Assembly (NCBI GenBank): GCA_018304585.1
Contig: JAGVVY010000002.1
Span: 1 to 48,031, forward strand
DNA from: Candidatus Aenigmatarchaeota archaeon
GTDB taxonomy: Archaea > Aenigmatarchaeota > Aenigmatarchaeia > GW2011-AR5
Length of the DNA stretch: 48,031 bases
Direction of reading: 5' to 3'
Position numbers and translations under genes: made by a program. This document shows, in pieces, positions 905 to 47,543 of the stretch. Under the pieces are notes generated by a model, which was not told the origin of the DNA, searched no databases, and saw only the letters and a list, made by a program, of their open reading frames with translations. Every line of letters begins with the position of its first letter. Position 1 is the first letter of the stretch.

Positions 905-1020
905 TTTGCAACCAGCTTTGCACGAAAAGTAGCCAATGAACACAAGATGTTGCGATTTTAGAAAGTCAAAATACAACCGGTTGACCGATTTTGGACTTTA
1001 GGTGCAAAGCCTTTGCAACC
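905..1020. mobile_element. 98-bp MITE with 9-bp target duplication
   Basis: The element spans 914-1011. Its ends are inverted repeats (AGCTTTGCAC at the left, GTGCAAAGCC at the right), matching at 14 of the outer 17 positions. It is flanked by an identical 9-base direct repeat, TTTGCAACC, at 905-913 and 1012-1020, the footprint expected of transposition. A nearly identical copy lies at 19194-19291, and the same termini bound the DISARM element at 34314-45201. It is too short to code for anything and must move in trans. Confidence 0.85.
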
Positions 1021-3906: not shown

Positions 3907-3907
3907 T

Positions 3908-15062: not shown

Positions 15063-15084
15063 AAAGAACAGCGCGTAATTCCCG

Positions 15085-17883: not shown

Positions 17884-17922
17884 TATTAGCTTATATGAAA
17901 AATTTAAAAGCGGAGTTCACGC

Positions 17923-18195: not shown

Positions 18196-18434
18196 TTTTT
18201 CACCTTCATTCCAGTGTCATTTTGCAATCTCTCCTCTCCGTGTCGTTTTTCTTCAAATTTTACAATGGTTGCAAGTTTTTGACGGAGAGAAGGGCATCGA
18301 AAGGCCTTAAATAATCAGGCCAATAATCGTGATAATCTGGCGTATGCCAAACATGCCATGTGGGGACAGTTCAGCTTCCATGAAATTAACATTTCAAAAA
18401 ATTATATAAAATAAAAATGGGAAATGGTGGGAAA

Positions 18435-19193: not shown

Positions 19194-19291
19194 GGCTTTG
19201 CACGAAAAGTAGCCAATGAACACAAGATGTTGTGATTTTAGAAGGTCAAAATACAACCGGTTGACCGATTTTGGACTTTAGGTGCAAAGCC
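19194..19291. mobile_element. 98-bp MITE, copy 2
   Basis: Same length and nearly the same sequence as 914-1011, differing at only a few positions, with the same GCTTTGCAC/GTGCAAAGC inverted ends. The flanking 9-mers do not match, so the original target duplication has been lost or the copy arose by recombination. It ends seven bases before the ATG of the secreted protein, so the element supplies that gene's immediate upstream sequence. Confidence 0.85.
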
Positions 19292-30968: not shown

Positions 30969-31081
30969 AGATAGTTTTTACACATTTCCTGCTATTTTAA
31001 CACAAAAAGGCTTTTCTACACAAAGCCTTTGCCCACAAAACGCTTAAGTAGTATTTTTTCAATCAAAGAAAGGTGGAAAAG

Positions 31082-31389: not shown

Positions 31390-31956
31390 AAACCAACAGC
31401 GTTCTTTGGAAACCCATAGGGATATTGGGCGGCATGGGGCCGGAGGCCACGGCGGAACTTTACAAGCGCATAGTAAATGTGTGCCAGTTCAAATACGGCG
31501 CCATAAAGGACTCAGATTTTCCAGAAATGTTCATATACCATAGACCCGTCAAGCACAAAATTACCGGTTGTGAACATAATTGAAGAGGCTCTTCGTGAAT
31601 GCAAGCGCCTGGGAGTTAAAACGGCAGGCCTTATTTCCACGGGCAGAACCGCAAGGAGAGGATTATATTCGGCTTTTGAAAATGGGATAGAAATACGTCT
31701 GCTTTCGGAGCAGCGGCAGGAAAGGGCGGATAACGTAATTCTCAACGTGCTGGCAGGCCGAAAAGTAATCGAAGATCGGGAATACCTGAAAGCGTTATCA
31801 ACACAGTTCGCAAAAGAGGGATGCGATGCAGTCATTCTGGGATGCACGGAGCTTCCGCTGCTCGTGTCGCAAGAAGACATGGAATTGCGCACGATAGACA
31901 CGCTTCAGGTGCTTGCAGAAAGATGCGTTTTGAAATCAAGGGGCGACATATCATGA
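31386..31956 (+). pseudogene. aspartate/glutamate racemase with internal deletion
   Basis: The N-terminus (KPIGILGGMGPEATAELYKR, FPEMFIYHRPV) and the C-terminal half (NIIEEALRECKRLGVKTAGL, then ILGCTELPLLVSQED with the second catalytic Cys) are both present and family-like. In intact enzymes about 60 residues including the first catalytic Cys (CNTA motif) lie between them; here HRPV is followed after a few bases by a frame-shifted KLPVVNIIEE. The gene therefore has a deletion near 31550-31557 and cannot be active as a racemase. The ATG overlaps the stop of the AbrB-like gene. Confidence 0.85.
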
Positions 31957-32037
31957 AAGAAGGCGGATTTCTTCATAATAGAAGAAACAAGGGAACCGAG
32001 AGAATATTCGGGCAATAATCTCTACTACGGACTGAAC

Positions 32038-32862
32038 GTGAGCGCCAATGCCAGCCTTGAACCGATAGACCAATTGGATGGTTTCCTCGCAGCCGCACAT
32101 GTCCAGCGGAATACCGGCGCACTTTTTTATCCATACATAGCCGGCGTCTACAATTGTCTGAACGCGAGATCGCCAAAGGAAGCGGCAAAGCAAGCCGAAC
32201 GGAGGGCGGTCCTTGACGCTGGCAAACAGGCACTTCTTTCCAGTGTGATGATAAATCTTGCGATATCCGGTACTGTGCTGACAACCTATGATTTTTGGAA
32301 CGAGACAAGATATTGGGAGATTGTAAGATGCCTTCTGGAGGATGGAATTGTGGGTCGCCTGCCTGAGGATCTTCGCGAAAGAGGCATTAGATTAGGGGAT
32401 TTTCCGCGAGAAATTGCCGGCAATATGGGAAAATCGTTGGGTCGTAGTTTTGATAACCTGTATACTGGAAGCCTATACGTGCCCGTAGAGGTGGCGGAAG
32501 CGTTGTGGTTGAGGAAAAGATATGGCGTAGACTGGAAAATCGGTCCGCCTTCCGAAGAATTGTACGACAGATTCATAGAAGAATCCGGCATTGGCATAAT
32601 CCGCACGCCGCAGCCAAGCGCAACTGAAGACGGGGAAGTGAAAATAGCAATGCCTTACATAGGCAAAGCCGCGCAAACAGGAAGGATACTATTTTCAGAT
32701 GATATGTCGTCATTGCAAAGAAAGGCATTTGATGGCAATCCGTCTTTCGGTTATGCCTTTAAGCTGTCGGATGCATATGAGAAATTATTCGGGAATGATG
32801 GGTATTCCCGCCGCCCGGCAGAAAGAATTTATAATCTGATAGAGTTAGCTAAAAAGAAGTGA
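32038..32862 (+). CDS. hypothetical protein, 274 aa or more
   Basis: From GTG 32038 the product has no domain I recognise (features: MINLAISGTVLTTYDFWNE, YTGSLYVPVEVAEALWLRKR, KIAMPYIGKAAQTGRILFSD). The same frame stays open back to 31957 and encodes protein-like sequence (KADFFIIEETREPREYSG) with no start codon. ATG 31953, overlapping the racemase stop, would fit after removal of one base near 31959. So the gene probably has a lost start through frameshift, or uses GTG 32038. It ends six bases before hisS. Confidence 0.55.
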   Translation: MSANASLEPIDQLDGFLAAAHVQRNTGALFYPYIAGVYNCLNARSPKEAAKQAERRAVLDAGKQALLSSVMINLAISGTVLTTYDFWNETRYWEIVRCLLEDGIVGRLPEDLRERGIRLGDFPREIAGNMGKSLGRSFDNLYTGSLYVPVEVAEALWLRKRYGVDWKIGPPSEELYDRFIEESGIGIIRTPQPSATEDGEVKIAMPYIGKAAQTGRILFSDDMSSLQRKAFDGNPSFGYAFKLSDAYEKLFGNDGYSRRPAERIYNLIELAKKK

Positions 32863-32868
32863 TACATC

Positions 32869-34083
32869 ATGACATTCCAGCCGCCGAAAGGCACGAGGGA
32901 TTTCCTGCCGGATGAGATGGCAAAGAGAAGGAAAGCTTTTGATACGTGCCGCGCTGTCTTTGAAAAATACGGATTTGGGGAAGTGGATACCCCTGTTTTT
33001 GAAAGTCTGGAAATGCTTACGGCCAAAGGCTCGTTAGGCGAAGAGGCCGTCAAGGACATATACCGCTTTGAAGACAAATCGAAGCGCAAGCTTGGGCTTC
33101 GTTATGATCTTACTGTTCCTATAGTTCGGCTTTTCCTTTCTCAGAAATTCTCAAAGCCCGTCAAATGGTACTATATTAATAAAGTCTGGCGTTACGAGGA
33201 TATTTCCAAAGGGAGATGGCGTGAATTCTCTCAATGCGATGCCGAGATTATAGGCTCGCCTTCGGCTGAAGCAGATTCTGAAATCCTTGGCGTTGCGATA
33301 GATTGCCTGCTTTCGCTGGGGGTAAAGGATATAGATGTCCGGATAAACAGCCGCAAAATCATGGATTCTATGGCTGAGAAAGCCGGCATCAAAGAGAAGG
33401 ACGCCTTATTCAGGGCAATAGACAAGCTTGAAAAGAAAGGCGAATCTGAGGTAAGAAAAGAGCTTTCTTCTTTTGCCAATGCAAAGCAGATCGATATCGT
33501 CATGAAGGCCGTGCGCTCTTCTTCAGGAGAGCCTGAATTAGATGGCATAATAGCATTGTTGCCGCAGGCATACCGCAAATTCGTGAAACAGGATTTTTCA
33601 ATAGCACGTGGTCTTGATTATTATACGGGCTTCATATTCGAAATACGCATAAAGGGCGCGGAGTCTCTTGGCTCTGTGCTTGGAGGCGGCCGGTATGATC
33701 GTCTCATAGAAAAATACGGAGGCGAGCCTACGCCTGCGACAGGTTTTGGACTTGGCATCGACCGCGTGATAGCAGGAATGAGTAATACTGCACTCAGTGA
33801 GCCGAAAGGACTTTTCATAATTTCTCTAAGCGAACCTGCTAAAGAAAAGGCTCGCGAATTAGCGCAGCAGCTTCGTGCATTAGGCATCAGTGTTGAAACA
33901 GATCTTATGGGAAGGGCGCTTTCCAAACAACTTGATTATGCCGGCAAAAAAGGCGTAAAATACAGCCTTGTCATAGGCGACAAAGAGCTTTCTTCCGGCA
34001 GGGCCATGCTTCGTGACATGAAGAATGGAAAGGAGAAAAATATACTTTTAGTTTCCGAAGTAATCAAAAGTTCTATGGAATGA
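32869..34083 (+). CDS. hisS: histidyl-tRNA synthetase
   Basis: Class II synthetase, 404 aa. Motif 1 region FQPPKGTRDFLPDEM and TPVFESLEML; LGLRYDLTVPIVR; motif 2 INKVWRYEDISKGRWREFSQ; the HisA motif ARGLDYYTGFIFE; motif 3 region GFGLGIDRVIAGM; and a C-terminal anticodon-binding domain. It is complete and intact, marking 32.9-34.1 kb as backbone between two accessory blocks. Confidence 0.95.
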   Translation: MTFQPPKGTRDFLPDEMAKRRKAFDTCRAVFEKYGFGEVDTPVFESLEMLTAKGSLGEEAVKDIYRFEDKSKRKLGLRYDLTVPIVRLFLSQKFSKPVKWYYINKVWRYEDISKGRWREFSQCDAEIIGSPSAEADSEILGVAIDCLLSLGVKDIDVRINSRKIMDSMAEKAGIKEKDALFRAIDKLEKKGESEVRKELSSFANAKQIDIVMKAVRSSSGEPELDGIIALLPQAYRKFVKQDFSIARGLDYYTGFIFEIRIKGAESLGSVLGGGRYDRLIEKYGGEPTPATGFGLGIDRVIAGMSNTALSEPKGLFIISLSEPAKEKARELAQQLRALGISVETDLMGRALSKQLDYAGKKGVKYSLVIGDKELSSGRAMLRDMKNGKEKNILLVSEVIKSSME

Positions 34084-34134
34084 ATGTGCACTCTACCGTC
34101 TATAGGCATCATTTTTCTGTGGCGCAGTAAAGCA

Positions 34135-34245
34135 TCAATATGCTGGTATGGGCTTTCCTTCCTCAAGGACGATACCACATTTCATGCAGTATGCTTCAAA
34201 ACTGCTGTAAATCACTTTTCCGGACTTGCAGTTGGAACACTTCAT
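34135..34245 (-). CDS. 36-aa zinc-ribbon protein resembling the TFB N-terminus
   Basis: ATG at 34245 to TGA at 34135 gives 36 residues with two CxxC pairs, C3/C6 in CSNCKSGKVIYSS and C20/C23 in YCMKCGIVLEEG, spaced as in the zinc ribbon of TFB/TFIIB. The cyclin-like core of TFB is absent. It may be a stand-alone zinc-ribbon protein or the stub of a truncated TFB. It is convergent with hisS and lies outside the DISARM element, whose left flank duplication starts at 34305. Confidence 0.5.
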   Translation of the reverse strand: MKCSNCKSGKVIYSSFEAYCMKCGIVLEEGKPIPAY

Positions 34246-34304
34246 AATTTAATTATGATAGGTTATCTCAATTGCCATGGGTTTCTCATGAGTATGGCCT
34301 ATGC

Positions 34305-34330
34305 CGGCATTCAAGCTTTGCACTTAAAGT
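34305..34330. repeat. left target duplication and terminal inverted repeat of the DISARM element
   Basis: The 9-mer CGGCATTCA (34305-34313) is followed by AGCTTTGCACTTAAAGT (34314-34330). The 17-base terminus matches the inverted right end of the 98-bp MITE at 15 of 17 positions and the inverted right end at 45201 at 14 of 17. Confidence 0.85.
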
Positions 34331-34336
34331 GAATAT

Positions 34337-35581
34337 TCACCCAACTTTAGGTTCAGTTTCTTTACTTTCGGTGCAGAAATCAGGCTTGATTCCGAGTTCA
34401 TGCATTTCCTGAATAACGACACAGATGTTATGGCAAAGGACTTTTAACAGAACTTCGTTAACCTGTGCCGTATGGTTCTTGCTTCTCACCGAGTCTCCGA
34501 ATTTAGACTTAATCATGTGGAATACAGTTTCCACGTTTGAACGCTTATGGTATTGCTGTAGGAATTCTTCACGGTTGAACATGAAGTAGTGATACATTTT
34601 GCCCCAAAGATTCGAGCCTCTTTGTTTTCCTGTGGCATTGCTCTTGAAAGGTATGAATGCCGTGCCGCCACAGTTGGCTACAGCTTCTATATTTTCTCTT
34701 GACGAATAAGCTTTGTCGGCAGAGACTTCATTTATTGTGAAGTTCTGTGCAGTCTTCTCAACAAGCTCACCGAATTCTTTACTGTCATGAGAGTATGCTT
34801 GTGTTATCTTAACGCCTGTGACGATATGAGTTTTAACGCCGTTCATTAGATGGCACTTCACCCATACTCTGCTGTCAACTTCTTTGCCATACTTGAATGA
34901 AAACCATCTGTCAAAACGTGACGTTCCGAATCCAGAACTGTCTACGGCGAAATCTGTCTCTATAGATTTCAAAGGCAAAGCGGAAACTTCTATCAGTTCA
35001 AGAAGAACGGATGTTGTCTCTTCTTTGTTAAGTATTTTGATACGGCATTGAAATGAGGCTTATGTGCGATGTGGTCTCTCTCCTTTGCTATTTGATAGTT
35101 CATTGCTGTTCTTCTGCTTGACAGAGTAGAATAGACTTTCAGAGCCGAGCAGAATATAACATCACATAGAGGCAGTGACGGTCTGCCGAATTCATAAGGC
35201 TTGTAAATGTCGTCTGTGAGATTGTAAAGAAGCTTCATGAAAAGTTCTGTTTCCTTGGTCGGTGCTTTGTTGTAGGCTGTCCAGTTCTGTGGATAGGTCT
35301 TCTTTACGATATATTCCACAGCGCCATCTGATGAATTTTCTTGTTTATCGTAAATTCAACAGCCCATATATGCTTGCATTTTATTCCGAGTAGCCCTTTG
35401 TTTCAAAGTCTGGGCATTCACAAATCGCTTTGTAGTTTTGATATGTAACAAGGTAAGCACCTGTACATGTCTGCGAAGGCACAACATAACCGCCTTTCTC
35501 TCTTTTCATTATTCGGCATGTCAGTCCTATCTGCATTCCTTTCTTCTGACGGATTTCGTTTGCCTCGTTTTGTGCCCGCAT
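34337..35581 (-). pseudogene. SWIM-DDE transposase, multiply frameshifted (copy 2)
   Basis: Three frame fragments give a protein colinear with copy 1 at 25289: MRAQNEANEIRQKKGM with CECPDFETKG, then (after a shift at about 35383) CKHIWAVEF, then VKKTYPQNWTAYNKAP to about 35000, then FAVDSSGFGTSRFDRWF with the first DDE Asp, VSADKAYSSRENIEAV, and YHKRSNVETVFHMIKSKF with the Y(2)R(3)E(6)K signature. Its C-terminal end lies just inside the left terminal repeat, as expected of an insertion sequence end. At least two frameshifts make it inactive. Sequence is clearly diverged from copy 1, so they are not recent duplicates. Confidence 0.85.
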
Positions 35582-35714
35582 ATCATCACCTAGTATGTTA
35601 TTAGTTAATAATATATTAGTTAGTAAAGTATTCAAGCTTATTAGTTGATATGTTATTTTGAAATAATGATTTACAAATAAATACCTGGATAATCAATAAG
35701 TTAAAGGTGACGAT

Positions 35715-35867
35715 GTGGGGAAAATAAAAATTAGCGTAGATGGTTTTGAATGTGAACGCTGCGGTCATAAATGGATCTCAAGGATAAAAGAATCCCCGCG
35801 CGTTTGTCCTAAGTGTCATTCTCCTTATTGGGATAAGCCAAAGCGCGGGAAAAAACAGGTGCTATAA
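35715..35867 (+). CDS. 50-aa zinc-ribbon protein preceding the DISARM methyltransferase
   Basis: GTG 35715 follows an AGGTGA ribosome binding site; the ATG two bases earlier leads to an immediate stop. The product has CERCGHKW and CPKCHSPYWDKP, two CxxC pairs forming a zinc ribbon, and a basic tail. The last base overlaps the ATG of the methyltransferase, so it is translationally coupled as the first gene of the DISARM operon. Small ribbons of this type occur in many archaea; a regulatory role for the operon is inference. Confidence 0.75.
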   Translation: MGKIKISVDGFECERCGHKWISRIKESPRVCPKCHSPYWDKPKRGKKQVL

Positions 35868-36781
35868 TGAAAGCAGTATCATTATTTTCTGGTTGCGGTG
35901 GTACGGATCTTGGTTTGAAAAATGCTGGGATAGATGTCATATTTGCAAATGATATTAGTAGTTGGGCATGTAAAACTTATGAAGAAAATCTGGGAGCAAT
36001 AGTTCATTCAGACATTAAAAAAATAGAATCTTTCCCAAGAGCTGACTTGTTAGTTGGGTGTTTCCCGTGTCAAGGCTTCAGTTTAGCACGAAGAAAAACT
36101 GGACCTGATCCTAGAAATCTTTTGTATTTGGAATTCGAACGCGCGCTTTCTCAAGTCAAGCCAGATTTCTTTGTAACTGAGAATGTGAAAGGACTGATTA
36201 GTCAGAATGGTATAGCGACATTTCAGGACATGCTGCTGAAATTTGGCAGAAGATATGACGTTTCATGGAAAGTTATTAACGCAAAGGATTATGGAGTTCC
36301 TCAGGATAGGGAAAGGGTTTTCATTGTAGGTGTAAAAAAATCTTTGAAGGAAAAATTTGTCTTCCCAGAACCAACACATGGTCCAGGAAAAAAGAAATAC
36401 GTTAACCTCAGAAAATCTATAGGTAACATGCCAAAACCAAAAGAAGACGAAATTTACAATAAAGGCTTCTCATGGCATTATCTTTCAAGAAATAGGAAAA
36501 GAAAATGGGATGATGTGAGTTTTACGATACAAGCTAGCGGTAGGCATGCACCACTTCATCCAAGTGGACCCCAGCCTGTGCATGTCGGAAAAGACAAATT
36601 CATTCTTCCATCTCCGGAAGAGAAGCATAGAAGACTTTCATATAAAGAGTGTGCTGTGATTCAAAGCTTTCCTAGAAGGTTCAAGTTTTATGGGCATTTA
36701 GAAGCAAAATACATGCAAATAGGAAATGCAGTACCACCCAAGATTTCTGAAATGATTGTTAGCGCCATTAAAGAATTATAA
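35867..36781 (+). CDS. drmMII: DNA cytosine-5 methyltransferase (DISARM DrmMII)
   Basis: 304 aa, complete: motif I SLFSGCGGTDLGLKNAG, motif IV VGCFPCQGFSLARRK with the catalytic Cys, motif VI VTENVKGLI, motif VIII PQDRERVFIVGV, motif IX/X SYKECAVIQSFP and MQIGNAVPPK. In class 2 DISARM the host-marking enzyme is a 5mC methyltransferase, and the next four genes are the other members, which assigns this role. The recognition sequence cannot be read from the protein. It is unrelated in detail to the methyltransferase half of the Vsr fusion at 26726. Confidence 0.9.
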   Translation: MKAVSLFSGCGGTDLGLKNAGIDVIFANDISSWACKTYEENLGAIVHSDIKKIESFPRADLLVGCFPCQGFSLARRKTGPDPRNLLYLEFERALSQVKPDFFVTENVKGLISQNGIATFQDMLLKFGRRYDVSWKVINAKDYGVPQDRERVFIVGVKKSLKEKFVFPEPTHGPGKKKYVNLRKSIGNMPKPKEDEIYNKGFSWHYLSRNRKRKWDDVSFTIQASGRHAPLHPSGPQPVHVGKDKFILPSPEEKHRRLSYKECAVIQSFPRRFKFYGHLEAKYMQIGNAVPPKISEMIVSAIKEL

Positions 36782-36804
36782 AGGTAAGTTTTACTATATT
36801 GAAC

Positions 36805-39138
36805 ATGCTAGTGGCACCAAAACTGACTCAAGTAGATTTTCGTTTCGATGGTCGCAAAATAGAGTTTCATAGTATTGAAAAAGATGCGTTAGAATTGGCA
36901 ACACTAACTGCCAATAAAGGATCTAAAATCGCTATTTTTTACCCTAGTGAGACATATGATTGCTTGTTGCCTTTTTGTCTAGAATTACTTTACCAAGGCA
37001 GATTTATGCGTAAAGAAAAGAGATCCGTCATCCTTTTTGCTGGGCGACTCGCTCCGAAACTAAGAGATTTGTACCTGTACCTGAACTATGGACCAGAAAG
37101 TATCGCATCTTCTTTATTCGGAATGTCTTACTTAACAAGACATGGCATCAGCAGTATAAAGCCTGTAGGTCTGAAAAAATTAGTTCCTGATAGATTCATA
37201 ATTTCAAACAACTATTCAGTATTGCCACAACAAAGTCTTGCAAAAGACTTGAATAGCGCAATAATAATTTCACCGTCTCATGGAATGACTTTCAGGATCC
37301 TAAAGGATATAAAATGGTGTGACGAAAATGGCATTGGAAACATAGTTCTGTTTGATAATTTCCCTACCTATAGAAAACTAAAGCTTTACACAAGTCTTGG
37401 TTTTGCAATTTACGGCTGGGAAACATGTGACATAGAATCGCGAACTGACGAAAACAGCAACACCACACCTGTTTCTAATTCTAAGTCATTGAGCACATTT
37501 GGACATTCTTCTCAAATAACTGTAATAGATGCTATTGACCATGAAACAGATAAGCAACTTGAGGGGCTTTCACAAGCAATTGAAAAACTAAGAAAATTCT
37601 CAGATGACGCTGATAATAACCCCACCGAATATATAATTTTCCGGGAGGCTTCATACATACTTCGAAGATTAGAATCCTTAACCGTACCGTTGTATGACTA
37701 CGATCAGTCTGATATTCAAACATTTAGACTAGGGCTAATTGAGAGAATAAACTCAATCATAGAGCTTTGTGATAACATTGGTACGAAGGCTCCTGCTGAA
37801 ATTAATGAAATTAAGGTATATTTGTCTGAAGCAAGATCGCACCTTACGAGCCGAAATCCTAAATTCAGTTGTCTACTCAACGAAATCGGAGAATGTATTA
37901 ACAGAAACGAGAAAGCCATATTATTCCTTGGATCTGATCAAGATAAGTTTGCTTTTCTGAAAGTTTTGGAGAAGAGAAATAGACATATAGCACAGCAAAT
38001 TCCAAATAGCAATATTGTTTTTGAGACGTTGTATTGTAACTATAAAAAATATGTTGGCAAAGATTTTGATAGGGCAATATTTTGCACTTACTTACCGCTA
38101 TCAAGAAATAGACTGATTGATAAAATCCAGGCCAAAGAAAAAAAGATGATTCTCTATACAATAGAAAAAAGGACCTTTAATTTTTTCAATAAATTACGTA
38201 CAAAATTTGAACAGGTTTTTTTCACCGCAGCAGCAAGAGAGGATTTAAGACAATTCTTGATGTCGCCCGATGAATCATACAAACAAAAATCAATAAAATT
38301 TATAGGTGAACTTGAAAAGGATGTTGATGAGTTGAAACATGTTAGTGAGGAGAAACCAACAAGTATAATTTCATTATTTACTGATACGGAAGATTTAGTT
38401 GAACCTGAACCTGTTTTTTATGACAAAGTACATTTAGAGGGCGAAGAAAGTGGGAAAAAATTATTCATAGACGGTATGGCTATTGGATTATATGAAGCTG
38501 GTACACTCTTAACAAAATCTGAAAGAACTGTACAGGTTGTAACAGAATCTGATGAAGTAAGATACAAAAAAGCTGCTGAATTGAAGATCGGTGATCAACT
38601 TTTACTCATTAACAGACAGACAAAAAAGACGCTTAATGAATTAATACTTGAAAAGGCTAACGAATATCCAAAACTTCAGATTATTAAGATGCTTGTCGAC
38701 ATTTGGGTGTCGGAATTAAGAAAAGGTATGAGGACCAATAATGACAGCGATTTAAGCCTTCTTAGAAAACTCCAAGAGTCTGGGTCCAGAATAAAGCATG
38801 ACGGGACGATAAAGCTCTGGTGTGAAGGTTATGTAATTGGTCCCAGAGATCGTGATGATGTTATTAGGATTGCAGATGCGTACAGCAGTGCTTCAATAAG
38901 AGCCAACTATAAAGGAATAAACACATCAATTAAAAATCTTAGAGGTCTTAGACGAAGTATAGTAAGAAGATTGAAAAATGCCCTTGTCGAAGGGGAAATA
39001 GATGAAATTGAAAAACTTGGAGTTAATATTGATGACTTTGAACAGTACGTGGAAATGTTTGAAGTTGCATCTATAGAAAAACGCAATAACATTTCAGTTG
39101 CTAGACTAGATACAGTTGATGGTACTTATGAATTATAA
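36805..39138 (+). CDS. drmE: DISARM protein DrmE (by context)
   Basis: 777 aa from ATG 36805 (a TTG at 36799 would add two). No classic enzymatic motif is obvious; segments such as SKIAIFYPSETYDCLLPFCL, SAIIISPSHGMTF and RAIFCTYLPLSRNRLIDKIQ suggest RecA-like alpha/beta domains in which helicase motifs have decayed. Position between the 5mC methyltransferase and DrmA, and size near 780 aa, match DrmE, the class 2-specific DISARM component of unknown biochemistry. The end overlaps DrmA. The name rests mainly on context. Confidence 0.72.
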   Translation: MLVAPKLTQVDFRFDGRKIEFHSIEKDALELATLTANKGSKIAIFYPSETYDCLLPFCLELLYQGRFMRKEKRSVILFAGRLAPKLRDLYLYLNYGPESIASSLFGMSYLTRHGISSIKPVGLKKLVPDRFIISNNYSVLPQQSLAKDLNSAIIISPSHGMTFRILKDIKWCDENGIGNIVLFDNFPTYRKLKLYTSLGFAIYGWETCDIESRTDENSNTTPVSNSKSLSTFGHSSQITVIDAIDHETDKQLEGLSQAIEKLRKFSDDADNNPTEYIIFREASYILRRLESLTVPLYDYDQSDIQTFRLGLIERINSIIELCDNIGTKAPAEINEIKVYLSEARSHLTSRNPKFSCLLNEIGECINRNEKAILFLGSDQDKFAFLKVLEKRNRHIAQQIPNSNIVFETLYCNYKKYVGKDFDRAIFCTYLPLSRNRLIDKIQAKEKKMILYTIEKRTFNFFNKLRTKFEQVFFTAAAREDLRQFLMSPDESYKQKSIKFIGELEKDVDELKHVSEEKPTSIISLFTDTEDLVEPEPVFYDKVHLEGEESGKKLFIDGMAIGLYEAGTLLTKSERTVQVVTESDEVRYKKAAELKIGDQLLLINRQTKKTLNELILEKANEYPKLQIIKMLVDIWVSELRKGMRTNNDSDLSLLRKLQESGSRIKHDGTIKLWCEGYVIGPRDRDDVIRIADAYSSASIRANYKGINTSIKNLRGLRRSIVRRLKNALVEGEIDEIEKLGVNIDDFEQYVEMFEVASIEKRNNISVARLDTVDGTYEL

Positions 39139-42100
39139 CAGGCAAAAACTTAGAGAAAAGATGATAGATCTGATAATGCAGTCAGTCATATCAGATGCAT
39201 CTGGAGAAGGCAAGCACGTTGTCGATATAAGACCCTCACAAATATTTTTTGTAGGGAATCTTAGTACCAAACCAAGGCTAGGAGAATTACAAAAAGTTGC
39301 GACAAAACTTTCTCCAAACTCCATTGGAATTGAAATATTACTCCCTCTTGATGTGCCAGAAGGCTCTACATTGACAATCTCTCCAAGCGGAGCATTTTAT
39401 TATAGAGTTTTTCCTGACTACAAATCTCAAAAATCATATTCTGACAGACTTTCATCTAAAAAGAGAAAATCTGTGGACTTCATTGAAAGATTCAAGAAAA
39501 GGACCTTCAGCAAAAGTTTCTCTATAGACGTTCAAGATACAATAAGAAAATGCGAAACTGATACAGAAGTTAACTTTCCATTTAATGATTTTTGTAGTGA
39601 CATTTGGAATGAAATAAAACAAGAAAAGGACTTATTTTCACCAATATCAATTGGTAACAAACCACCATCCATCAATATTCCAATTGATGTTATGAAAACT
39701 GAAGCTGATTTCGAAAGTTTTATCAACGGAAGAAAACAAGAATTGGATTGTAACTGGGGGTTTGAAATTAATATAAAGTGTTTCAAAACTGTATCCGGCT
39801 ATAGAATGGTAATTCTGTTTGTAAATAATAAGGATTATATAGAAGACCAAAAGATCAAAAAAAGCATTGAAAATTACATTTTTGAATCAAAAATAAATAT
39901 AAAATCTGTTGTGCCGCTAAAGGCATTCATTTTGGACCAGTTAGAAAAGAACTATAAACATGATAGGACTGTCGAAGCAGCCGGTATAAATTGTAGCTTT
40001 ACAAAACTGTCGACGCATGAAATAGAGACAAACCACGTCCCAATTTTTAGACAACCAAGGCGAGTAGCCCGAAATATGGGTGGAATTAAGTTTAAAGATT
40101 TAAATGAAAGACCTATTCAAGTCTTGAATTCTCTGAAAGCTTCTATGAAATCAAGCTACAACATATTTAGTCAAAAATTTGCGATGAGAGCGAAAACGCA
40201 TGAAGAAAAAGAAGAGTTCGAAAAAGACATGAATCTAATAAAAAATGAAATTGAAAGATTTGAAAATGGCATAGAACATATTAACAAATACAAAGATTCT
40301 TTTCGTGCATTTCAACTAATGAATCAAACTTTTGAAATGTCGGTAAAAGAAAAGTATGACTCATGGTACCCGTTCCAAATAGTTTTCATAACGTCGCTTG
40401 TGCCAGATGTCATAGCAGAACGGCACCCTGAAGCTAAAAATTTCAGAAATCATGCTGATCTTTTATATTTTCCAACTGGTGGCGGTAAGACAGAAGCATT
40501 TTTAGGGTTAGCCATATTTCAGGCCTTTTATGATAGGATATCTGGAAAGAAGTTTGGAGTCTCAGTGATTACAAAATTTCCTCTCAGAATGCTTTCACTA
40601 GACCAAATGCGCAGGATAGCAGAAATTTTTGCCAAGGCTGAAACCATAAGAAAATCCGAGCCGGACATAGGCAAAGAAGAATATCATCCATTCAGTGTTG
40701 GGTATTTCGTAGGTGCAAAAGTTACTCCTAACAAACTTATCGAATGGGATTATACACAAGGTCCTCGCGGCGGCTACAAAAATATACTTGAAGATTTGGA
40801 ATCCGATAAGGAAAAACTCTCAAAATTTCAATTGATTTCTAAATGCCCCTTTTGCGAAAGCAACGTAGACATGGTAGCCGATAAAGCGAGAATTAGACTT
40901 GCTCATGTATGCATAAATAAAAATTGCGTTGGAGAGCTTCCAATTTACATAACCGATACTGAGATATTCAGATATGTACCTACGTTTATTGTTGGTACAC
41001 TTGACAAAATGGCGTCGATTGGCCAACAAATAAACTTTAGAAATATACTTGGTGCAATAAGCCATGAGTGTGAGTTACATGGCTTCAGTAGCTCAATTGT
41101 TTGTACTGAAGATAAATCGGGATGCAAATCTGAACTAAAACCGGTTCCTAAATACGACTACTCACCCTCATTACTAATTCAAGATGAAATGCATCTTGTT
41201 AGAGAAACATTAGGGTCATTTGACTCTCATTATGAGACTGCAATAGCACACCTAATAAGTGTGTTTTCGGACAAAAACAAAAGAATTAAAATTGTATGTG
41301 CAACTGCTACATTGTCTGACAAAACTTATAATGACCATGTAAATCACTTGTATCTTCGAGATGCCATAAAATTTCCTGCTGCACTAGAAATTTTTACGGA
41401 TGAAAGCAATGACACGGCAAGAATGATAGTTGGGTTGATGCCTCATTCAAAAACTCTGATCAATAGCATGGAAGAAATCATAATTAGTATGTCAAACACA
41501 GTCCAGACTTGGGTAAATGACACGTCTACATTAAAATCACTTTTAAGCGAAGATTATCCAGATGAAACCATTCAAAAAGAGCTGAGAGATTTTTGGACTA
41601 TACTTACTTATCATATTAAGAAAAACGATGCTTACCAACTTTCTAGGTCTGTGTCAACAAGAATAAACGAAACTCTCCAGAATGAACTGCAATTAAAGAC
41701 CCTTCGACGCAAGACACTAACTGGCGACGTGAATTTTAAAGAAATAAAACAAGTAATGAATAAAGTCAAAGAAGAAAAAAACTATGAGAACGCCTTGGAT
41801 TTGATAATTGCAACTAGCATAATATCCCACGGCGTGGATATAGACGCACTTAATCTAATGACTTTTATGGGCATGCCAGGAAACAATGCAGAATATATTC
41901 AAGCTTTAAGCAGAGTTGGCAGACAGCGCACAGGTTTGGTCTTCGCTGTTTTTAATCCAACACGAGAAAAAGATAGAAGCTATTTTAAACACTTCGAAAA
42001 GTTCCATCAACTGTCAGATTTACTTATAGAACCAACACCTATACAGCGATGGTCAAAGAAAGTAGTTGAGAAAACCTGCCCTGGAATTTTTTGTGGGGCG

Positions 42101-42505
42101 ATATACAGTTACTTTGATTTTATTGTTAATAGTGCACAAAAATTAATTAAGCCAAATAAGCTTAATTTTCCAAGAAACTTTAAAGAAGTTTTAAGATCTG
42201 GAGTAATAAAAGATGAAGAGATAATAGAATTTATCAAGAAATGCTATACTGATGGGACGGTGAATTCACCACCTGATTTTATAGAAAAAGTTAAAAGTAC
42301 AGCATCCGAATGTGTAAATTCTATAATAAGACTTGACATTAGCACAATACCACCACACCATATTATTGGAACATTCCTTTCTCCTCAGCCTCTGCAAAAT
42401 TTGAGAGACGTTGAAGAAGGTGTTTTTGTAGCACTTACAGAAAAGTCTATCAGTATTCTTAGAAAAGGCATAATAAAGGAAACTGACTTTACGGAGGAAG
42501 ACTAA
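39128..42505 (+). CDS. drmA: DISARM helicase DrmA
   Basis: 1,125 aa from ATG 39128; ATG 39119 and TTG 39116 are alternative starts. SF2 helicase: Walker A YFPTGGGKTEAFLGLA (about residue 455), Ib VITKFPLRMLSLDQMRR, Walker B SLLIQDEMHLVRETLGSF (DEMH box), motif III CATATLS, and the C-terminal domain IIATSIISHGVDIDALNL plus YIQALSRVGRQRTGLVF. A zinc-like CPFCESN...CINKNCVG insertion lies between. DrmA with DrmB forms the core DNA-sensing and translocating complex of DISARM. Ends immediately before the DrmB ATG. Confidence 0.92.
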   Translation: MNYNRQKLREKMIDLIMQSVISDASGEGKHVVDIRPSQIFFVGNLSTKPRLGELQKVATKLSPNSIGIEILLPLDVPEGSTLTISPSGAFYYRVFPDYKSQKSYSDRLSSKKRKSVDFIERFKKRTFSKSFSIDVQDTIRKCETDTEVNFPFNDFCSDIWNEIKQEKDLFSPISIGNKPPSINIPIDVMKTEADFESFINGRKQELDCNWGFEINIKCFKTVSGYRMVILFVNNKDYIEDQKIKKSIENYIFESKINIKSVVPLKAFILDQLEKNYKHDRTVEAAGINCSFTKLSTHEIETNHVPIFRQPRRVARNMGGIKFKDLNERPIQVLNSLKASMKSSYNIFSQKFAMRAKTHEEKEEFEKDMNLIKNEIERFENGIEHINKYKDSFRAFQLMNQTFEMSVKEKYDSWYPFQIVFITSLVPDVIAERHPEAKNFRNHADLLYFPTGGGKTEAFLGLAIFQAFYDRISGKKFGVSVITKFPLRMLSLDQMRRIAEIFAKAETIRKSEPDIGKEEYHPFSVGYFVGAKVTPNKLIEWDYTQGPRGGYKNILEDLESDKEKLSKFQLISKCPFCESNVDMVADKARIRLAHVCINKNCVGELPIYITDTEIFRYVPTFIVGTLDKMASIGQQINFRNILGAISHECELHGFSSSIVCTEDKSGCKSELKPVPKYDYSPSLLIQDEMHLVRETLGSFDSHYETAIAHLISVFSDKNKRIKIVCATATLSDKTYNDHVNHLYLRDAIKFPAALEIFTDESNDTARMIVGLMPHSKTLINSMEEIIISMSNTVQTWVNDTSTLKSLLSEDYPDETIQKELRDFWTILTYHIKKNDAYQLSRSVSTRINETLQNELQLKTLRRKTLTGDVNFKEIKQVMNKVKEEKNYENALDLIIATSIISHGVDIDALNLMTFMGMPGNNAEYIQALSRVGRQRTGLVFAVFNPTREKDRSYFKHFEKFHQLSDLLIEPTPIQRWSKKVVEKTCPGIFCGAIYSYFDFIVNSAQKLIKPNKLNFPRNFKEVLRSGVIKDEEIIEFIKKCYTDGTVNSPPDFIEKVKSTASECVNSIIRLDISTIPPHHIIGTFLSPQPLQNLRDVEEGVFVALTEKSISILRKGIIKETDFTEED

Positions 42506-44338
42506 ATGAAATTCGAGGATCGAGTACCACGCGGTAAAAGCCAAGTGCTTTTTAATTTTCTGCCAGGGGCTTTGATTGACTTCCCAACGACTAATATTGT
42601 TGCAAAAGTTGCTGCGTGGCAATCAGATAAAATAGAATCAAAATCCAACAAACGTATACTAGACAAGATTTATTCGCTTATGACGGAAAAATACATGGCC
42701 GTGGACGATAGATTCCCAAAAAAGCCCGACGTAAGTCAATTTAGATTTGGCGAGCCGATATTAGTCGAGTCTGAAATATTTCCACTGGTTTTCAAATCGC
42801 AAACTACGAAAAAGGTTTATTTTTTCTATAATTTAGATGATCTTGATAGATTTTTGGCTAGCTGGAACAAATCTGAACAACTTGTACAAATTGACCTAAT
42901 TTTTATCGACACCCATGGAGATGTGGACAGATTACATCCAACACAAGATGCTAGAAAAAAGAACATAAAGCTAGAGAAGATCGGTAAAAGCCAAGCAGGG
43001 CTTCATTGGATTGATATGGACACCGATGAGGACCTTGGCCAAATATGGCACTTTATGAACGGAAAAAGAATAAGTGTCGCAACACCAGTAAGAGCTAAGA
43101 TAACTTATTTGCCTCAAATAATTACCCTTGTTAATATTCGAGATTATCTTGATTTTGAACAAAGAGAAAAAGAAATATTGATGATCGCAATTATATCGAA
43201 ATACTTAGATCATTTGAATGAATTTTCTGACATGACATTTGACAAAATAGTAAGAGAGGTAAGATATACCAGGGAAATGGGAAGTAATGATATAGAAAAG
43301 CTACTGGCTAAGCTTGGAGTTGATAAAAATAATTTACCTGATGATAAGAAAAAAGAAATTGTAAAGTTTTCTCAGTCTTCAGGAAATATAGGCAGCAGAA
43401 TAAAAGCTGTGTTGGACCAAGACAAAGAATTTATCCGCGGTTTGGACGTTGCAAATATTTACGACAGAGTTTATGAGTACCTTACAACTATAGAATCTCG
43501 TGGAAGAGAAAATTTAGATGAAGCAATAGATTCAGCATTGCAAGACAAAAGCAAATTCATACAGTTTAAAAAACGCATGGATTTAATAGGCGTTAAAAAA
43601 ATTACATATGTTGAAGACATACCAATTCAAAATGTTGCATATGGTTACGTAAGAGGTAGCTTCAATACAAAAGAGACAATACTACGTGCATTTCCTTTTG
43701 ACAGATTCGATAACAAGCGCATTCCTATTTATCTTACTAATACAACAACCGAGGGACTTGTATTAGAACTTGACAGAACGAAAATACTGAAGTGGCTTAA
43801 TAATAATGGCATCGTAGAAACTAAAAACATGAGTGATGAAGAGGAGAAGTTGTGGTTCCTCAATAATATCGACAGTTCAAAAATATCAACCTTCTCAGGA
43901 ACTAAAGAAGCTGGCGTTACAAGAGAAGTATTTCATTTAATACACAGTATTTCTCATGCATTGATCAAAAAAATCCCTGAACAGGCTGGAATAGGTCTAG
44001 ACTCTATTGGCGAAATCATATTCCCCAACATACCTGCAATACTTATTTTTTCGAGAGAGAGCGGAGACTTTCGTATTGGTGCATTGCATGACTTATTCCG
44101 TAATCGATTATATCCATGGGTCGATGTTACAATAAAAGACATAGGTAAATGTGTTTATGACCCTGTCTGCTATCACGACATTGGTTCATGTCATAGCTGC
44201 TTATACTTAAATGAGATTTCTTGTAGTAATTTCAATCAAGACTTATCAAGGCACTACCTAATTGGAAAAGCTTTCAATGGTAACTTATCAGCTTTTTGGA
44301 AAGATGCCATAAATCAAATAGATAGGGGTGTTTTATGA
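42506..44338 (+). CDS. drmB: DISARM protein DrmB (DUF1998)
   Basis: 610 aa. The C-terminal DUF1998 pattern is clear: FHLIHSISHALIKKIPEQAG, GEIIFPNIPAILIFSRESG, and the Cys cluster KCVYDPVCYHDIGSCHSCLY, followed by CSNF. The N-terminal half carries no named domain. Starts one base after the DrmA stop with a GGAGG ribosome binding site; its end overlaps DrmC by 4 bases. DrmB partners DrmA. Confidence 0.92.
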   Translation: MKFEDRVPRGKSQVLFNFLPGALIDFPTTNIVAKVAAWQSDKIESKSNKRILDKIYSLMTEKYMAVDDRFPKKPDVSQFRFGEPILVESEIFPLVFKSQTTKKVYFFYNLDDLDRFLASWNKSEQLVQIDLIFIDTHGDVDRLHPTQDARKKNIKLEKIGKSQAGLHWIDMDTDEDLGQIWHFMNGKRISVATPVRAKITYLPQIITLVNIRDYLDFEQREKEILMIAIISKYLDHLNEFSDMTFDKIVREVRYTREMGSNDIEKLLAKLGVDKNNLPDDKKKEIVKFSQSSGNIGSRIKAVLDQDKEFIRGLDVANIYDRVYEYLTTIESRGRENLDEAIDSALQDKSKFIQFKKRMDLIGVKKITYVEDIPIQNVAYGYVRGSFNTKETILRAFPFDRFDNKRIPIYLTNTTTEGLVLELDRTKILKWLNNNGIVETKNMSDEEEKLWFLNNIDSSKISTFSGTKEAGVTREVFHLIHSISHALIKKIPEQAGIGLDSIGEIIFPNIPAILIFSRESGDFRIGALHDLFRNRLYPWVDVTIKDIGKCVYDPVCYHDIGSCHSCLYLNEISCSNFNQDLSRHYLIGKAFNGNLSAFWKDAINQIDRGVL

Positions 44339-45090
44339 TGAAGCAATCAAGGATAGATGTGATAGTTAATGCTCTAAAAGTTCTTGATAAAAAGGGCGAA
44401 GTTTCTGGAAGGGATATACTGCGAACACTGGAAAAATTGTGTGATGTGAATGAGCTTCATCTTTATGCAATGTTGAATGAACAGATAATAAAATCTATAA
44501 AAGTTTCCAGAGACATAAAGGACTATAAATTCAAAATCCTAAAGGATGGACTTTCTAACAAGCAAAAAATTTCAAATATTTTTGAAGATCTAATAGCTGA
44601 TGATTTCGTGCTTATTGCTAGTTACCCACCCGGAAAGATCGAAGAAAAATATAAGGTTGAACAATTATATCCTAGATTATGCAGACTAATTTTATCAGCA
44701 AAAAGAAGTCTCGTACTTATCAACCCTTATTTTGATAAAAAGGGTCTTGATAAATTATTACCCTACATAGATGGTGCTGCTAAAAATGGCGTAAAAATAA
44801 GATTAATTTGTAGAAAAGGGAAGGAACCTGACGCCTTAATAGGAGCAATAAAAAGCAGAATTGGAGATAATTTAGAGTTGAAAGAGTTTGGAGGGTTGGG
44901 ATATTTTCTTCATGCAAAGTGCATAATTGCAGATGATAAGTTGGCTTACATAGGCAGCGCCAATATAACTGGAACTTCTTTGGGCTCAAATCTTGAACTT
45001 GGAGTTCTTTTCACTGGCAGCAAAGTAAAACAGTTATCACAATTCCTAGACAGGGTACTAAGCTTCGAGGGCGACGATGAAGATGGTTGA
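44335..45090 (+). CDS. drmC: DISARM phospholipase D-like protein DrmC
   Basis: 251 aa. One PLD-type HxK(x4)D motif, LHAKCIIADDKLAYIGSANI, near residues 196-215 with the following GS/N residues, as in single-motif PLD nucleases that dimerise. The N-terminal 90 residues are helical (ILRTLEKLCDVNELHLYAML). ATG 44335 overlaps the DrmB stop, preceded by GGGGTG. DrmC is the PLD member of the DISARM core and is dispensable in some studied systems. Between its stop and the element's right end (45091-45201) I see no gene. Confidence 0.92.
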   Translation: MMKQSRIDVIVNALKVLDKKGEVSGRDILRTLEKLCDVNELHLYAMLNEQIIKSIKVSRDIKDYKFKILKDGLSNKQKISNIFEDLIADDFVLIASYPPGKIEEKYKVEQLYPRLCRLILSAKRSLVLINPYFDKKGLDKLLPYIDGAAKNGVKIRLICRKGKEPDALIGAIKSRIGDNLELKEFGGLGYFLHAKCIIADDKLAYIGSANITGTSLGSNLELGVLFTGSKVKQLSQFLDRVLSFEGDDEDG

Positions 45091-45184
45091 TAAGGTTAGT
45101 AAGATCAAAGAAAGCTACATAATGTCAAGAAGGACCCTCGTTATTGTGTAGAGAAGCTAAGGATACGATACAAAGCAGGTCTAT

Positions 45185-45210
45185 AGTTTAGGTGCAAAGC
45201 CCGGTATTCA
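45185..45210. repeat. right terminal inverted repeat and target duplication of the DISARM element
   Basis: AGTTTAGGTGCAAAGCC (45185-45201) is the inverted counterpart of the left end, and the following CGGTATTCA (45202-45210) matches the left-flank 9-mer at 8 of 9 positions. TTTAGGTGCAAAGCC is identical to the right end of the 98-bp MITEs over 15 bases. Confidence 0.85.
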
Positions 45211-45343
45211 ATAAGCTTTATAAGAATTTCGATAGTAATCAGTCATAGGCTCTTACTTCTGCCGGCGAAAGCCGGTTAGGTTAGAACACAAAATAAAACA
45301 TAGAGTTAGAATATAAAACAAAAGCATAGAATAGGTGAAATAA

Positions 45344-47167
45344 ATGAAAGAAAAGAATGCGCACAGCGCGCAGAACGTACAGAAGATTGTACCCGATACC
45401 AGCGTGATAATATCCGGCATACTGTCGGATCTGGTGAAGAAAGGCGAATTGAAAGGGATAGAGATTATAATTCCAGAATTCGTTGTAGAGGAGCTCCGCT
45501 CCCAGGCATCCCGCGGCCGCGAGATCGGCTTCAAGGGTCTGAGGGAACTGAAGGAAATCCGCGCCCTTGAGGAAGAAAAGAAGCTTACTGTCATAAGAAC
45601 AGGCAGACGCCAGACAATGGAAGAAATCCAGCTTGCCAAGTACGGCAGGATAGACGGACTCATAGTTGACGTCGCCAAACAGGAAAAAGCGGTTCTTTAC
45701 ACTTCTGATCGTGTCCAGCATCTGGTCGCTGAAGCCGAAGGTGTAGTTTCGGTATTCTTTGAGCCTTACCAGAAAAAGGAGACGGTTCTTGCAAAGATGC
45801 TCACAGACGATACAATGAGCTTGCATCTCAAGGAAAAATGCGCGCCTATGGCCAAGCGGGGAAGACCTGGCGAAATGAAGCTTGTGAAAATATCAGACGA
45901 TCTTCTTACAGAAGAGCAAATGGAATCTATAATAAAAGAGGTCATGGATGCATGCCGGTACGAGGAGGATTCGTTCCTTGAAGTGGACGGTCATACAGCC
46001 AGCGTAGTTCAGATGGGCAATATGCGTATTGCAATAGCAAGGCCGCCGTATTCTGACGGCATAGAAATCTCGGTTGTAAGGCCAACAGCGAAGCTTACGC
46101 TTGACGATTACAAGCTTTCTGAGAAACTGAAGAAGCGTCTCGAAGGCAAAGCCGAAGGTATACTGCTCTCCGGCCCCCCAGGATCGGGAAAAAGCACTTT
46201 CGCCGCGTCATTGGCGGAGTTCTACGAAAGCAAAGGCAAGATAGTAAAGACCATGGAATCGCCGCGTGATCTTCAGGTGAGACCGGAAATAACGCAGTAC
46301 ACAAAATTGAAAGGAAGCTTTGAGAATACGGCAGACATGCTTCTGCTTGTTCGTCCGGATTATGTAATCTTTGATGAAGTCCGCAAGACCAACGACTTCC
46401 ATGTTTTTTCGGACATGCGCCTTGCAGGCATAGGCATGATAGGCGTTGTGCATGCAACAGATCCGGTAAGCTCGGTTCAGCGTTTCATTGGCAGAGTTGA
46501 AATGGGCATGATACCGCATATCGTAGATACGGTCGTGTATATCAAGGACGGCAAGGTAGGCAAGATATATACCCTCTCACTCATAGTCAGGACGCCTACC
46601 GGCATGACGGAAGCCGATTTGGCAAGGCCGATAGTGGAAGTACGCGACTTTGAAAGCAATGCCCTTGAATATGAAATATACAGTTACGGTGAAGAGAACG
46701 TCATAATACCTGTCAAGGAAGAGGCAACTTCTGCAGTGCAAGAATTGGCTAAGAAACAAATTCTTGCAGAATTGCGCAAATACGACAGGAACGCAGAAGT
46801 CGAATTCCTTTCTGACAACAGCATAACGGCATACGTAGAGAACGATGTGATGGCAAGAATAATCGGCAAAGAAGGCCGCAACATCAAGGAACTTGAAGAA
46901 AAACTTGGCTTGAGGATAGACGTTTCTCCAAGAGTCGCCACTATGGGCAAGGAAGCCAAGTTTGTCTACGATGAATCGGGCGGATACATACTCTTTAACT
47001 TTAACGAGCGGCTTCAGGGCCATGTAGCGAATTTTCACGTTGACGGCGAGTATCTGTTCTCGGCGACCATAGGGAAAGGAGGAAGCGTCCGGGTTTCAAA
47101 AACAAGCGACACGGGCAAGGAACTAATGAAGGCATTGGTCAAGGGAAGCCTCACTACATTCGTGTAG
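45344..47167 (+). CDS. PIN domain and ATPase protein (PINA-like, with KH domain)
   Basis: 607 aa. PIN nuclease-like domain first (VPDTSVIISGIL, IIPEFVVEELRSQ, YGRIDGLIVDVA with acidic residues), then a VirB11/PilT-like ATPase (Walker A LLSGPPGSGKSTFAASLA at about 270, IFDEVRK Walker B, GVVHATDPVSSVQRFIGR), and a KH domain (MARIIGKEGRNIKELEEKLG). This is the layout of archaeal PINA, a hexameric ATPase reported to drive Holliday junction branch migration. It starts 134 bases right of the DISARM element with a GGTGA ribosome binding site five bases upstream. Confidence 0.92.
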   Translation: MKEKNAHSAQNVQKIVPDTSVIISGILSDLVKKGELKGIEIIIPEFVVEELRSQASRGREIGFKGLRELKEIRALEEEKKLTVIRTGRRQTMEEIQLAKYGRIDGLIVDVAKQEKAVLYTSDRVQHLVAEAEGVVSVFFEPYQKKETVLAKMLTDDTMSLHLKEKCAPMAKRGRPGEMKLVKISDDLLTEEQMESIIKEVMDACRYEEDSFLEVDGHTASVVQMGNMRIAIARPPYSDGIEISVVRPTAKLTLDDYKLSEKLKKRLEGKAEGILLSGPPGSGKSTFAASLAEFYESKGKIVKTMESPRDLQVRPEITQYTKLKGSFENTADMLLLVRPDYVIFDEVRKTNDFHVFSDMRLAGIGMIGVVHATDPVSSVQRFIGRVEMGMIPHIVDTVVYIKDGKVGKIYTLSLIVRTPTGMTEADLARPIVEVRDFESNALEYEIYSYGEENVIIPVKEEATSAVQELAKKQILAELRKYDRNAEVEFLSDNSITAYVENDVMARIIGKEGRNIKELEEKLGLRIDVSPRVATMGKEAKFVYDESGGYILFNFNERLQGHVANFHVDGEYLFSATIGKGGSVRVSKTSDTGKELMKALVKGSLTTFV

Positions 47168-47246
47168 CTCTTTAAAAACTTTACCTTCAAATATGAAATA
47201 CAGAAAATAAATGAAACTCACTACATTCGTGTAGCTCTTTAAAAAC
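47150..47246. repeat. 30-bp direct repeat of the PINA gene end
   Basis: The last coding bases and stop of the PINA gene plus 12 bases beyond (47150-47179) recur exactly at 47217-47246, 67 bases downstream. The spacing sequence is AT-rich and non-coding. A local duplication at the border of the hairpin-rich region is the simplest explanation. Confidence 0.85.
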
Positions 47247-47270
47247 CCACCGCTTTCAAGCGGTGGGTTT
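47243..47270. terminator. strong hairpin after the PINA gene
   Basis: AAACCCACCGCT pairs with AGCGGTGGGTTT around a four-base TTCA loop. The stem is 12 bp and ends in a short T run. It may be a transcript end for PINA or a subterminal hairpin of an IS200/IS605-like element. It follows directly on the second 30-bp repeat. Confidence 0.5.
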
Positions 47271-47273
47271 GCA

Positions 47274-47324
47274 CATCGAATTCCCGTTGTTTCATCCGCC
47301 GTATTAATACGGCGGAATTCGATG
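47274..47324. repeat. nested palindrome upstream of tRNA-Arg
   Basis: Outer arms CATCGAATT and AATTCGATG enclose a perfect 22-bp palindrome (47295-47316, TCCGCCGTAT/ATACGGCGGA). The tRNA-Arg promoter (TTTAAAGG, 47325-47332) begins at its right edge. Together with the elements before tRNA-Ile and tRNA-Val, each of the three tRNAs in the window has a hairpin element within about 60 bases upstream. Confidence 0.6.
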
Positions 47325-47356
47325 TTTAAAGGTTTCTTTGAGATTTATTTCAGCAA

Positions 47357-47472
47357 GCTCGCGTAGCTCAGCTTGGACAGAGCACTTCCCTCCTAGAGGT
47401 GACCTGAGCCGCAAGGCGATGAAGATTCCTGGAGTGAGGAAGGGGTCGCGCGTTCAAATCGCGTCGCGGGCG
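47357..47472 (+). tRNA. tRNA-Arg (anticodon CCT) with a 41-nt intron
   Basis: Acceptor 47357-47363 (GCTCGCG) pairs with 47465-47471 (CGCGGGC, one G-T pair); discriminator G47472. D arm 47366-47383; T arm 47448-47464 with TTCAAAT. Anticodon stem CTTCC (47385-47389) with GGAAG (47438-47442). The loop begins CTCCTA (47390-47395), so the anticodon is CCT. Intron 47396-47436 lies at the canonical 37/38 site. A TATA-like TTTAAAGG is about 25 bases upstream. Confidence 0.9.
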
Positions 47473-47543
47473 TTTCAGTATTTGCCGAAAAAAGACCGTG
47501 TGTTGTGTCGGAGATTGATTATCCCCGCAAATCCGCTATTCAC

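Follow-up and report, generated by a model that had tools for sequence, protein, structure and literature searches.

Evidence that a DISARM operon of an Aenigmatarchaeota genome lies in a unit transposon of a cargo-bearing, IS903-related lineage

Defence systems move between genomes, often by a vehicle that escapes notice, particularly in uncultured archaea. A 48,031-nucleotide stretch of DNA from Candidatus Aenigmatarchaeota archaeon (here the window) raises the question of how a DISARM operon came to lie between hisS and a PIN-KH ATPase gene. An initial annotation had placed the operon inside a transposon with terminal repeats and a target-site duplication. Our data make it very probable that 34314-45201 is a unit transposon, inserted whole between these two genes with duplication of 9 bp, and that it belongs to a broad cargo-bearing SWIM/IS903-like lineage.

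Re-reading of the window sequence bore out the proposed ends and flanks, which delimit an element of 10,888 bp (Table 1). As inverted repeats, the left and right ends agree at 14 of 17 positions, and the flanking 9-mers, CGGCATTCA and CGGTATTCA, are identical at 8 of 9, the one-base difference counting against a unit transposon. The annotated transposase remnant and intact DISARM set were recovered as well, the former by its DDE_Tnp_1 match and the latter as five intact genes. When the window was scanned with the terminal inverted repeat (TIR) pattern at up to 3 mismatches, 7 occurrences were found versus 1.7 expected, a number reached in 0 of 100 shuffles; no further TIR lay between the left and right ends, indicating that the structure is not an insertion sequence (IS) plus an unrelated repeat. 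The G+C content is 36.0% within the element and 49.5% outside.

Table 1. Features of the element, its DISARM cargo and the related MITEs in the window
Feature	Coordinates	Strand	Basis
MITE, 98 bp, same termini, perfect 9-bp duplication TTTGCAACC	914..1011	.	pattern scan
Second MITE copy, no visible target duplication	19194..19291	.	pattern scan
Left target-site duplication CGGCATTCA	34305..34313	.	single copy CGGCATTCA at G002 empty site
Left TIR AGCTTTGCACTTAAAGT, transposase-proximal end	34314..34330	+	same ends on MITEs and sister elements
Transposase pseudogene, SWIM N-terminus and IS5/IS903-like DDE domain	34337..35590	-	DDE_Tnp_1 5e-22
Subterminal iteron 1, ACTTTAGGTTCAG, opposed to TIR	34344..34356	-	fits proximal-end architecture of sister elements
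Subterminal iteron 2, ACTTTCGGTGCAG, 20 bp from iteron 1	34364..34376	-	read from end analysis
Small zinc-ribbon ORF, 50 aa, overlaps drmMII start	35715..35867	+	read from sequence
drmMII-type C5-cytosine DNA methyltransferase	35867..36781	+	PADLOC/Pfam; PCQ and ENV motifs
drmE	36799..39138	+	Pfam DrmE_C 2e-32; PADLOC DrmE
drmA helicase	39116..42505	+	PADLOC DrmA 2e-168; PTGGGKT, DEMH motifs
drmB	42506..44338	+	PADLOC DrmB 4e-65
drmC, phospholipase-D-like nuclease	44335..45090	+	PADLOC DrmC; Pfam PLDc_2; HKD motif
Right TIR AGTTTAGGTGCAAAGCC, distal end, without recognisable iterons	45185..45201	-	read from sequence
Right target-site duplication CGGTATTCA, one C-to-T change	45202..45210	.	sequence and G002 comparison

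The annotation had also proposed, as a test of insertion, a search of related genomes for an empty site with a single CGGYATTCA, and a congeneric Aenigmatarchaeota genome (G002) supplies it: CGGCATTCA is present once at the same locus, which reads ...GGCCTATGTCGGCATTCAATAAGC..., that is, left flank, single 9-mer and right flank with nothing between them. Window positions 45202-47177 are 99.7% identical to G002, the left flank is 99.0% (34158-34256) and 95.4% (34250-34314) identical, and 500-bp bins of the flanks range from 93 to 100%; the PIN-KH ATPase to the right shares ~100% protein identity with its G002 copy. The single 9-mer with contiguous flanks proves 34314-45201 to be a single unit of 10,888 bp, either inserted or precisely lost. 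A search of the G002 genome for DrmA and DISARM returned none, and DrmA was found in none of the other 155 genomes among the 156 surveyed in the class. DISARM genes with other boundaries in relatives, or the two 9-mers at the same spacing around no insert, had been named as refuting observations; they were looked for and not found. The locus thus combines TIR bounds, internal cargo, a target duplication and an empty site, as a unit transposon with cargo does, and from these features we infer its movement.

The empty site bears on several other readings. If DISARM were an ordinary chromosomal locus with a separate IS inserted on its left, the right repeat and the 9-mers would be coincidental. 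A transposase at one end only and a right end without iterons agree with this, but the whole 10,888 bp is missing in G002, where the 9-mer is single, neither end has a second TIR nearby that could delimit a separate IS, and DrmA is missing from the rest of the class. The G002 site rules this arrangement out, and we give it practically no credence. An assembly artefact, in which a mobile contig was misjoined to the host locus, might be suspected in a draft assembly of 33 contigs; such a join would produce neither inverted repeats nor a 9-bp duplication where the sister genome has the sequence once, and the artefact is likewise extremely improbable. An empty site alone cannot separate insertion from precise loss, and so the element could instead be ancestral at the site and G002 could have lost it by precise excision, one target copy included. 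The lack of DISARM elsewhere in the class, the foreign G+C content and the near identity of the flanks between the two genomes all argue against that, as does the rarity of precise loss for DDE elements of such kind. We therefore regard ancestral presence as very unlikely; even if it were right, the element would remain a transposon.

With a whole insertion as the preferred reading, the state of the transposase gene is informative. Three frameshifts, near 35400, 35340 and 35000-35060, interrupt it, and the DDE part with its residues is still an open frame (34337-34978). Identity of the remnant to intact homologues is 54-79%, varying with the copy and with the region that is compared. The copy in the window is non-autonomous because its transposase is frameshifted, although the three frameshifts may be sequencing or assembly errors. 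The broken gene counts against the unit-transposon reading, as does the failure to find an intact transposase copy in the assembly, which is 82.5% complete. Since the flanks have diverged by only ~0.3-3% over most of their length and yet the gene carries three inactivating indels, the element was probably already defective or was broken soon after landing; it would then have been moved in trans by a related transposase or have lost its own just after insertion. A second transposase remnant, at 25292-26468, is likewise broken, and no pair of TIRs and target duplications was found around it.

The ends of the element were compared with those of its sister elements, described below. Copies of the TIR core are present near the ends in 43 of 50 elements, at 8.0 per kb at the ends versus 0.46 per kb inside. 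At the distal end these iterons lie at offsets 21 and 41 in TIR orientation (exact in 25 and 23 elements), and at the transposase-proximal end at offsets 34 and 54 in the opposite orientation (exact in 15 and 15). The iteron sequence varies in step with the TIR between elements, as binding sites of a protein that co-evolves with them would; the iterons are probable transposase-binding sites. The window's element bears a pair of opposed iterons at its left end (34344, 34364); at its right end no iterons were recognisable, only the TIR of 16-17 bp, which again counts against a unit transposon; DISARM may have been captured via a TIR-like pseudo-end, or the end may have decayed. This short right TIR would also fit a composite transposon, with DISARM between two IS copies of which the right-hand one survives only as its outer end. 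At 45081-45215, however, nothing of an IS was detectable apart from the TIR, and the sister elements, with one transposase gene and asymmetric iteron ends, display the anatomy of unit transposons. A composite was rejected because a second flanking IS is lacking, and we judge it very improbable.

Sister elements were sought with a family query built from an alignment of intact transposase homologues, which returned 79 loci from named genomes. The scan for elements relied mainly on inverted repeats, whatever their sequence, immediately flanked by an exact 9-bp direct repeat; a second, looser branch took ends resembling the window's. This de novo scan yielded elements in ~50 loci, 49 of them distinct after duplicate removal; they measure 1.9-8.2 kb, have RGCTTTG-type termini and are flanked by exact 9-bp duplications. 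Together with the window's, the 50 elements span 1,860-10,888 bp (median, 4,945); the DISARM element is the largest, a further point against the unit-transposon reading. When 50 TIR pairs were picked blind to their flanks (some loci twice), 39 had an exact 9-bp repeat, 11 had none, and zero had a repeat of any other length. Reversed and complemented controls gave 2 and 1 matches versus 55; gap-shifted direct-repeat controls were set aside as uninformative because the inverted repeats extend inward. A pattern scan of relatives gave five cargo elements, all with 9/9 duplications. The same termini with other cargo and an intact SWIM-DDE transposase, for which the annotation had suggested a search, were found dozens of times. 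Archaeal hosts include Aenigmatarchaeota, Woesearchaeota, Micrarchaeota, Diapherotrites, Altiarchaeota, Nanohalarchaeota and Methanomicrobia, and bacterial hosts include Chloroflexi, Acidobacteria, Actinobacteria, Eremiobacterota and Fusobacteria, among others. In the transposase tree, Aenigmatarchaeota sequences are interspersed with other phyla at five positions, of which supported branches force at least four; this scatter suggests horizontal movement, with the proviso that bins can be contaminated.

The closest known relatives of this lineage are in the IS903 group of the IS5 family (IS903/IS903B and the ISAba12 group), with which it shares terminal GGCTTTGT... repeats and a homologous DDE transposase. 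The best NCBIfam model was IS5_2 in 8 of 8 transposases tested, 7 of which scored under its 140-bit cut-off; homology to IS903B extends over 266 columns at 98% probability, and the IS5-type Y-(2)-R-(3)-E-(6)-K motif is present as YHKRSNVETTFHMIK in the homologue alignment. The GGCTTTG-type terminal repeats of the IS903 group were found, matching the IS903B end, which was used for the comparison because no GGCTTTG ends were found at the ISRhba5 locus. A 9-bp target duplication is also typical of that group (Table 2 of PMC6382973). In contrast, its known members measure ~1.05 kb and hold the transposase gene alone, whereas the elements here measure 1.9-10.9 kb and have cargo, iteron arrays at their ends and an N-terminal SWIM domain. 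The SWIM assignment comes from a weak Pfam match (17.4 bits versus a cut-off of 19.6) and from CxC...CxH residues that are invariant in the alignment. On these sequence features the lineage is best classed as a distinct cargo-bearing relative of the IS903 group, not as a member of it.

The cargo is biased toward defence genes, a wider pattern that was out of sight of the initial annotation. In a homology search, 28 of the 50 elements carried DNA methyltransferase or restriction-modification (R-M) genes, and none of 355 flanking ORFs was of this kind (p ~4e-17). Often they encode a type IIG R-M enzyme, a methylase with a specificity subunit, or a C5 methylase with Vsr; a complete type III pair (locus L158) and DISARM also occur. 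In a Pfam tally of 138 cargo ORFs, N6_Mtase (17) and Eco57I (13) ranked on top, and no such families were among the top 25 of 138 flanking ORFs from the same loci. As the elements were located via the transposase and not the cargo, the R-M excess is no product of selection for R-M. Methylase genes are easy to recognise, and further defence genes may be present among the other cargo ORFs.

Judged from its sequence, the cargo in the window is an intact class 2 DISARM set, drmMII, drmE, drmA, drmB and drmC. The DrmA helicase, DrmB and DrmC gave PADLOC matches, DrmE and the C5 methyltransferase matched DrmE_C and DNA_methylase, and the catalytic motifs PCQ/ENV, PTGGGKT/DEMH and HKD are intact. The methyltransferase matches the DrmMII model at 9e-63, a model outscored by DruM2 and the MTase_II/general type II models, so that the name DrmMII rests on gene context. 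The gene order drmE-A-B-C is the same as that of the class 2 DISARM on a Halomicrobium urmianum plasmid, whereas the set here sits within a defined unit transposon and has diverged, its DrmA being ~31% identical to the nearest haloarchaeal-plasmid homologue. The nearest DrmA relatives are on haloarchaeal plasmids; a search of viral contigs returned none. DISARM is carried by only 1 of the 50 elements, which counts against the unit-transposon reading, and with these plasmid relatives it means that the vehicle does not explain the spread of DISARM generally. The initial suggestion that such an element accounts for that spread therefore stands for this case and fails as a rule.

Transposition of the element and defence activity of its cargo can both be framed as a sequence-based model. 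The transposase would bind the TIR and iterons and pair the ends, and the element would have been inserted by DDE chemistry with a 9-bp staggered cut. The DISARM genes are predicted to act in the manner described for class 2 systems, marking the host's own DNA by methylation and attacking incoming DNA that lacks the mark. R-M or DISARM cargo would guard the host against phage, a benefit that could pay for carrying the transposon; in the R-M cases, post-segregational killing, which is known for R-M (PMC3031569, PMC4176335), may favour the element's retention. We consider it reasonably probable that this previously undescribed IS903-related lineage, recognisable by its SWIM transposase and iteron-bearing ends, serves as a general vehicle by which R-M and DISARM systems are captured and spread among archaeal phyla, those of DPANN in particular, and bacterial ones, the cargo in turn stabilising the transposon.

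IS elements with passenger genes are known in general. R-M systems have been linked to IS and composite transposons, showing that defence genes travel with IS machinery (PMC3031569 and references therein); the examples there are composites flanked by IS copies, co-integrates or isolated cases, whereas here one lineage repeatedly bears different R-M systems between its own ends. Tn7-like and CRISPR-associated transposons also bear defence cargo (PMC12452197), with other transposition machinery than the single IS5-like DDE transposase here. A literature search, with subscription papers and preprints outside its scope, found no prior description of a DISARM unit transposon, in keeping with the annotation, which knew of none. 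Nor did it find one of a SWIM/IS903-like, iteron-ended, R-M-rich lineage (ISfinder also lying outside its scope), and both are likely new to the literature. A DISARM vehicle is hereby defined to the base, empty site included, and it leads to a transposon lineage biased to defence cargo. How large defence operons reach tiny symbiotic archaea becomes directly testable, and the end signature is usable to find new defence genes among cargo ORFs of no known function.

Small relatives of the element occur in the same host, whose draft assembly comprises 825 kb. The genome holds ~10 MITEs of 98 bp that have their termini in common with the DISARM element, several with perfect 9-bp duplications. The copy at 914-1011 had been reported in the initial annotation with the same termini and a perfect duplication, and both hold; at other sites in the genome, 98-bp copies show duplications of 9/9 (GCTACTATG, AGCTAACGA, TGTAATTCA) or 8/9. 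Both the MITEs and the DISARM element were probably mobilised in trans. MITEs with the same ends, mobilised in trans, are also known from the IS903 group; for MITEAba12, which has an IS903-type TIR and 9-bp duplications, mobilisation by a related transposase has been proposed (PMC6382973), and, unlike the DISARM element, it is without cargo.

Across a set of 50 elements (the window's DISARM transposon and 49 sister cargo transposons with a SWIM-bearing IS5/IS903-like transposase), iterons, repeats resembling the terminal inverted repeat (TIR), occur at fixed offsets from the ends: 21/41 at the transposase-distal end and, in opposed orientation, 34/54 at the proximal end. These iterons covary with the TIR, and we know of no such feature in IS903. 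At three loci retrieved by transposase homology, two transposons lie side by side with a common 9-bp sequence, in the layout TSD-E1-TSD-E2-TSD (TSD, target-site duplication), i.e., re-insertion at the edge of an element already present.

Features of the window and of transposase-homologous loci
Feature	Location	Strand
Iterons of the DISARM element	window 34344-34376	
Second transposase, same family as that of the DISARM element, diverged	window 25292-26468	-
Side-by-side transposon pair	L168 5780-16126	
Side-by-side transposon pair	L142 865-11458	
Side-by-side transposon pair	L162 1997-7134	

The second transposase of the window comprises a 376-aa ORF and a C-terminal part that is displaced from it and contains an in-frame TGA. 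A check of the surrounding sequence for ends gave no TIR/TSD pair. When compared with G002, the congeneric genome with an empty insertion site, the window is 93-100% (mostly 97-100%) identical at 31017-47482 versus only about 82% at 1210-18850. This mosaic similarity suggests a recent exchange between the two species around the insertion site.

Restriction-modification genes are also carried by this lineage. A single transposon (L158 3037-11245) holds a complete type III system (Mod and Res) with an additional 482-aa gene beside it, and an element in another bin (L159) matches it in size and ends. A C5 methyltransferase and a Vsr endonuclease form the cargo of L164 5472-12009 and L106 4559-10680, whose hosts belong to two distant archaeal phyla. 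In the L137 and L145 elements, methyltransferases adjoin uncharacterised proteins (e.g., 358-369 aa), possibly unrecognised restriction partners. Finally, L130 7889-11574 (G002) and L146 3999-8592 contain an apparently similar uncharacterised two-gene cargo, encoding proteins of about 470-478 and 162-166 aa with similar starts; it spans Aenigma- and Nanohalarchaeota and is a candidate new defence module.
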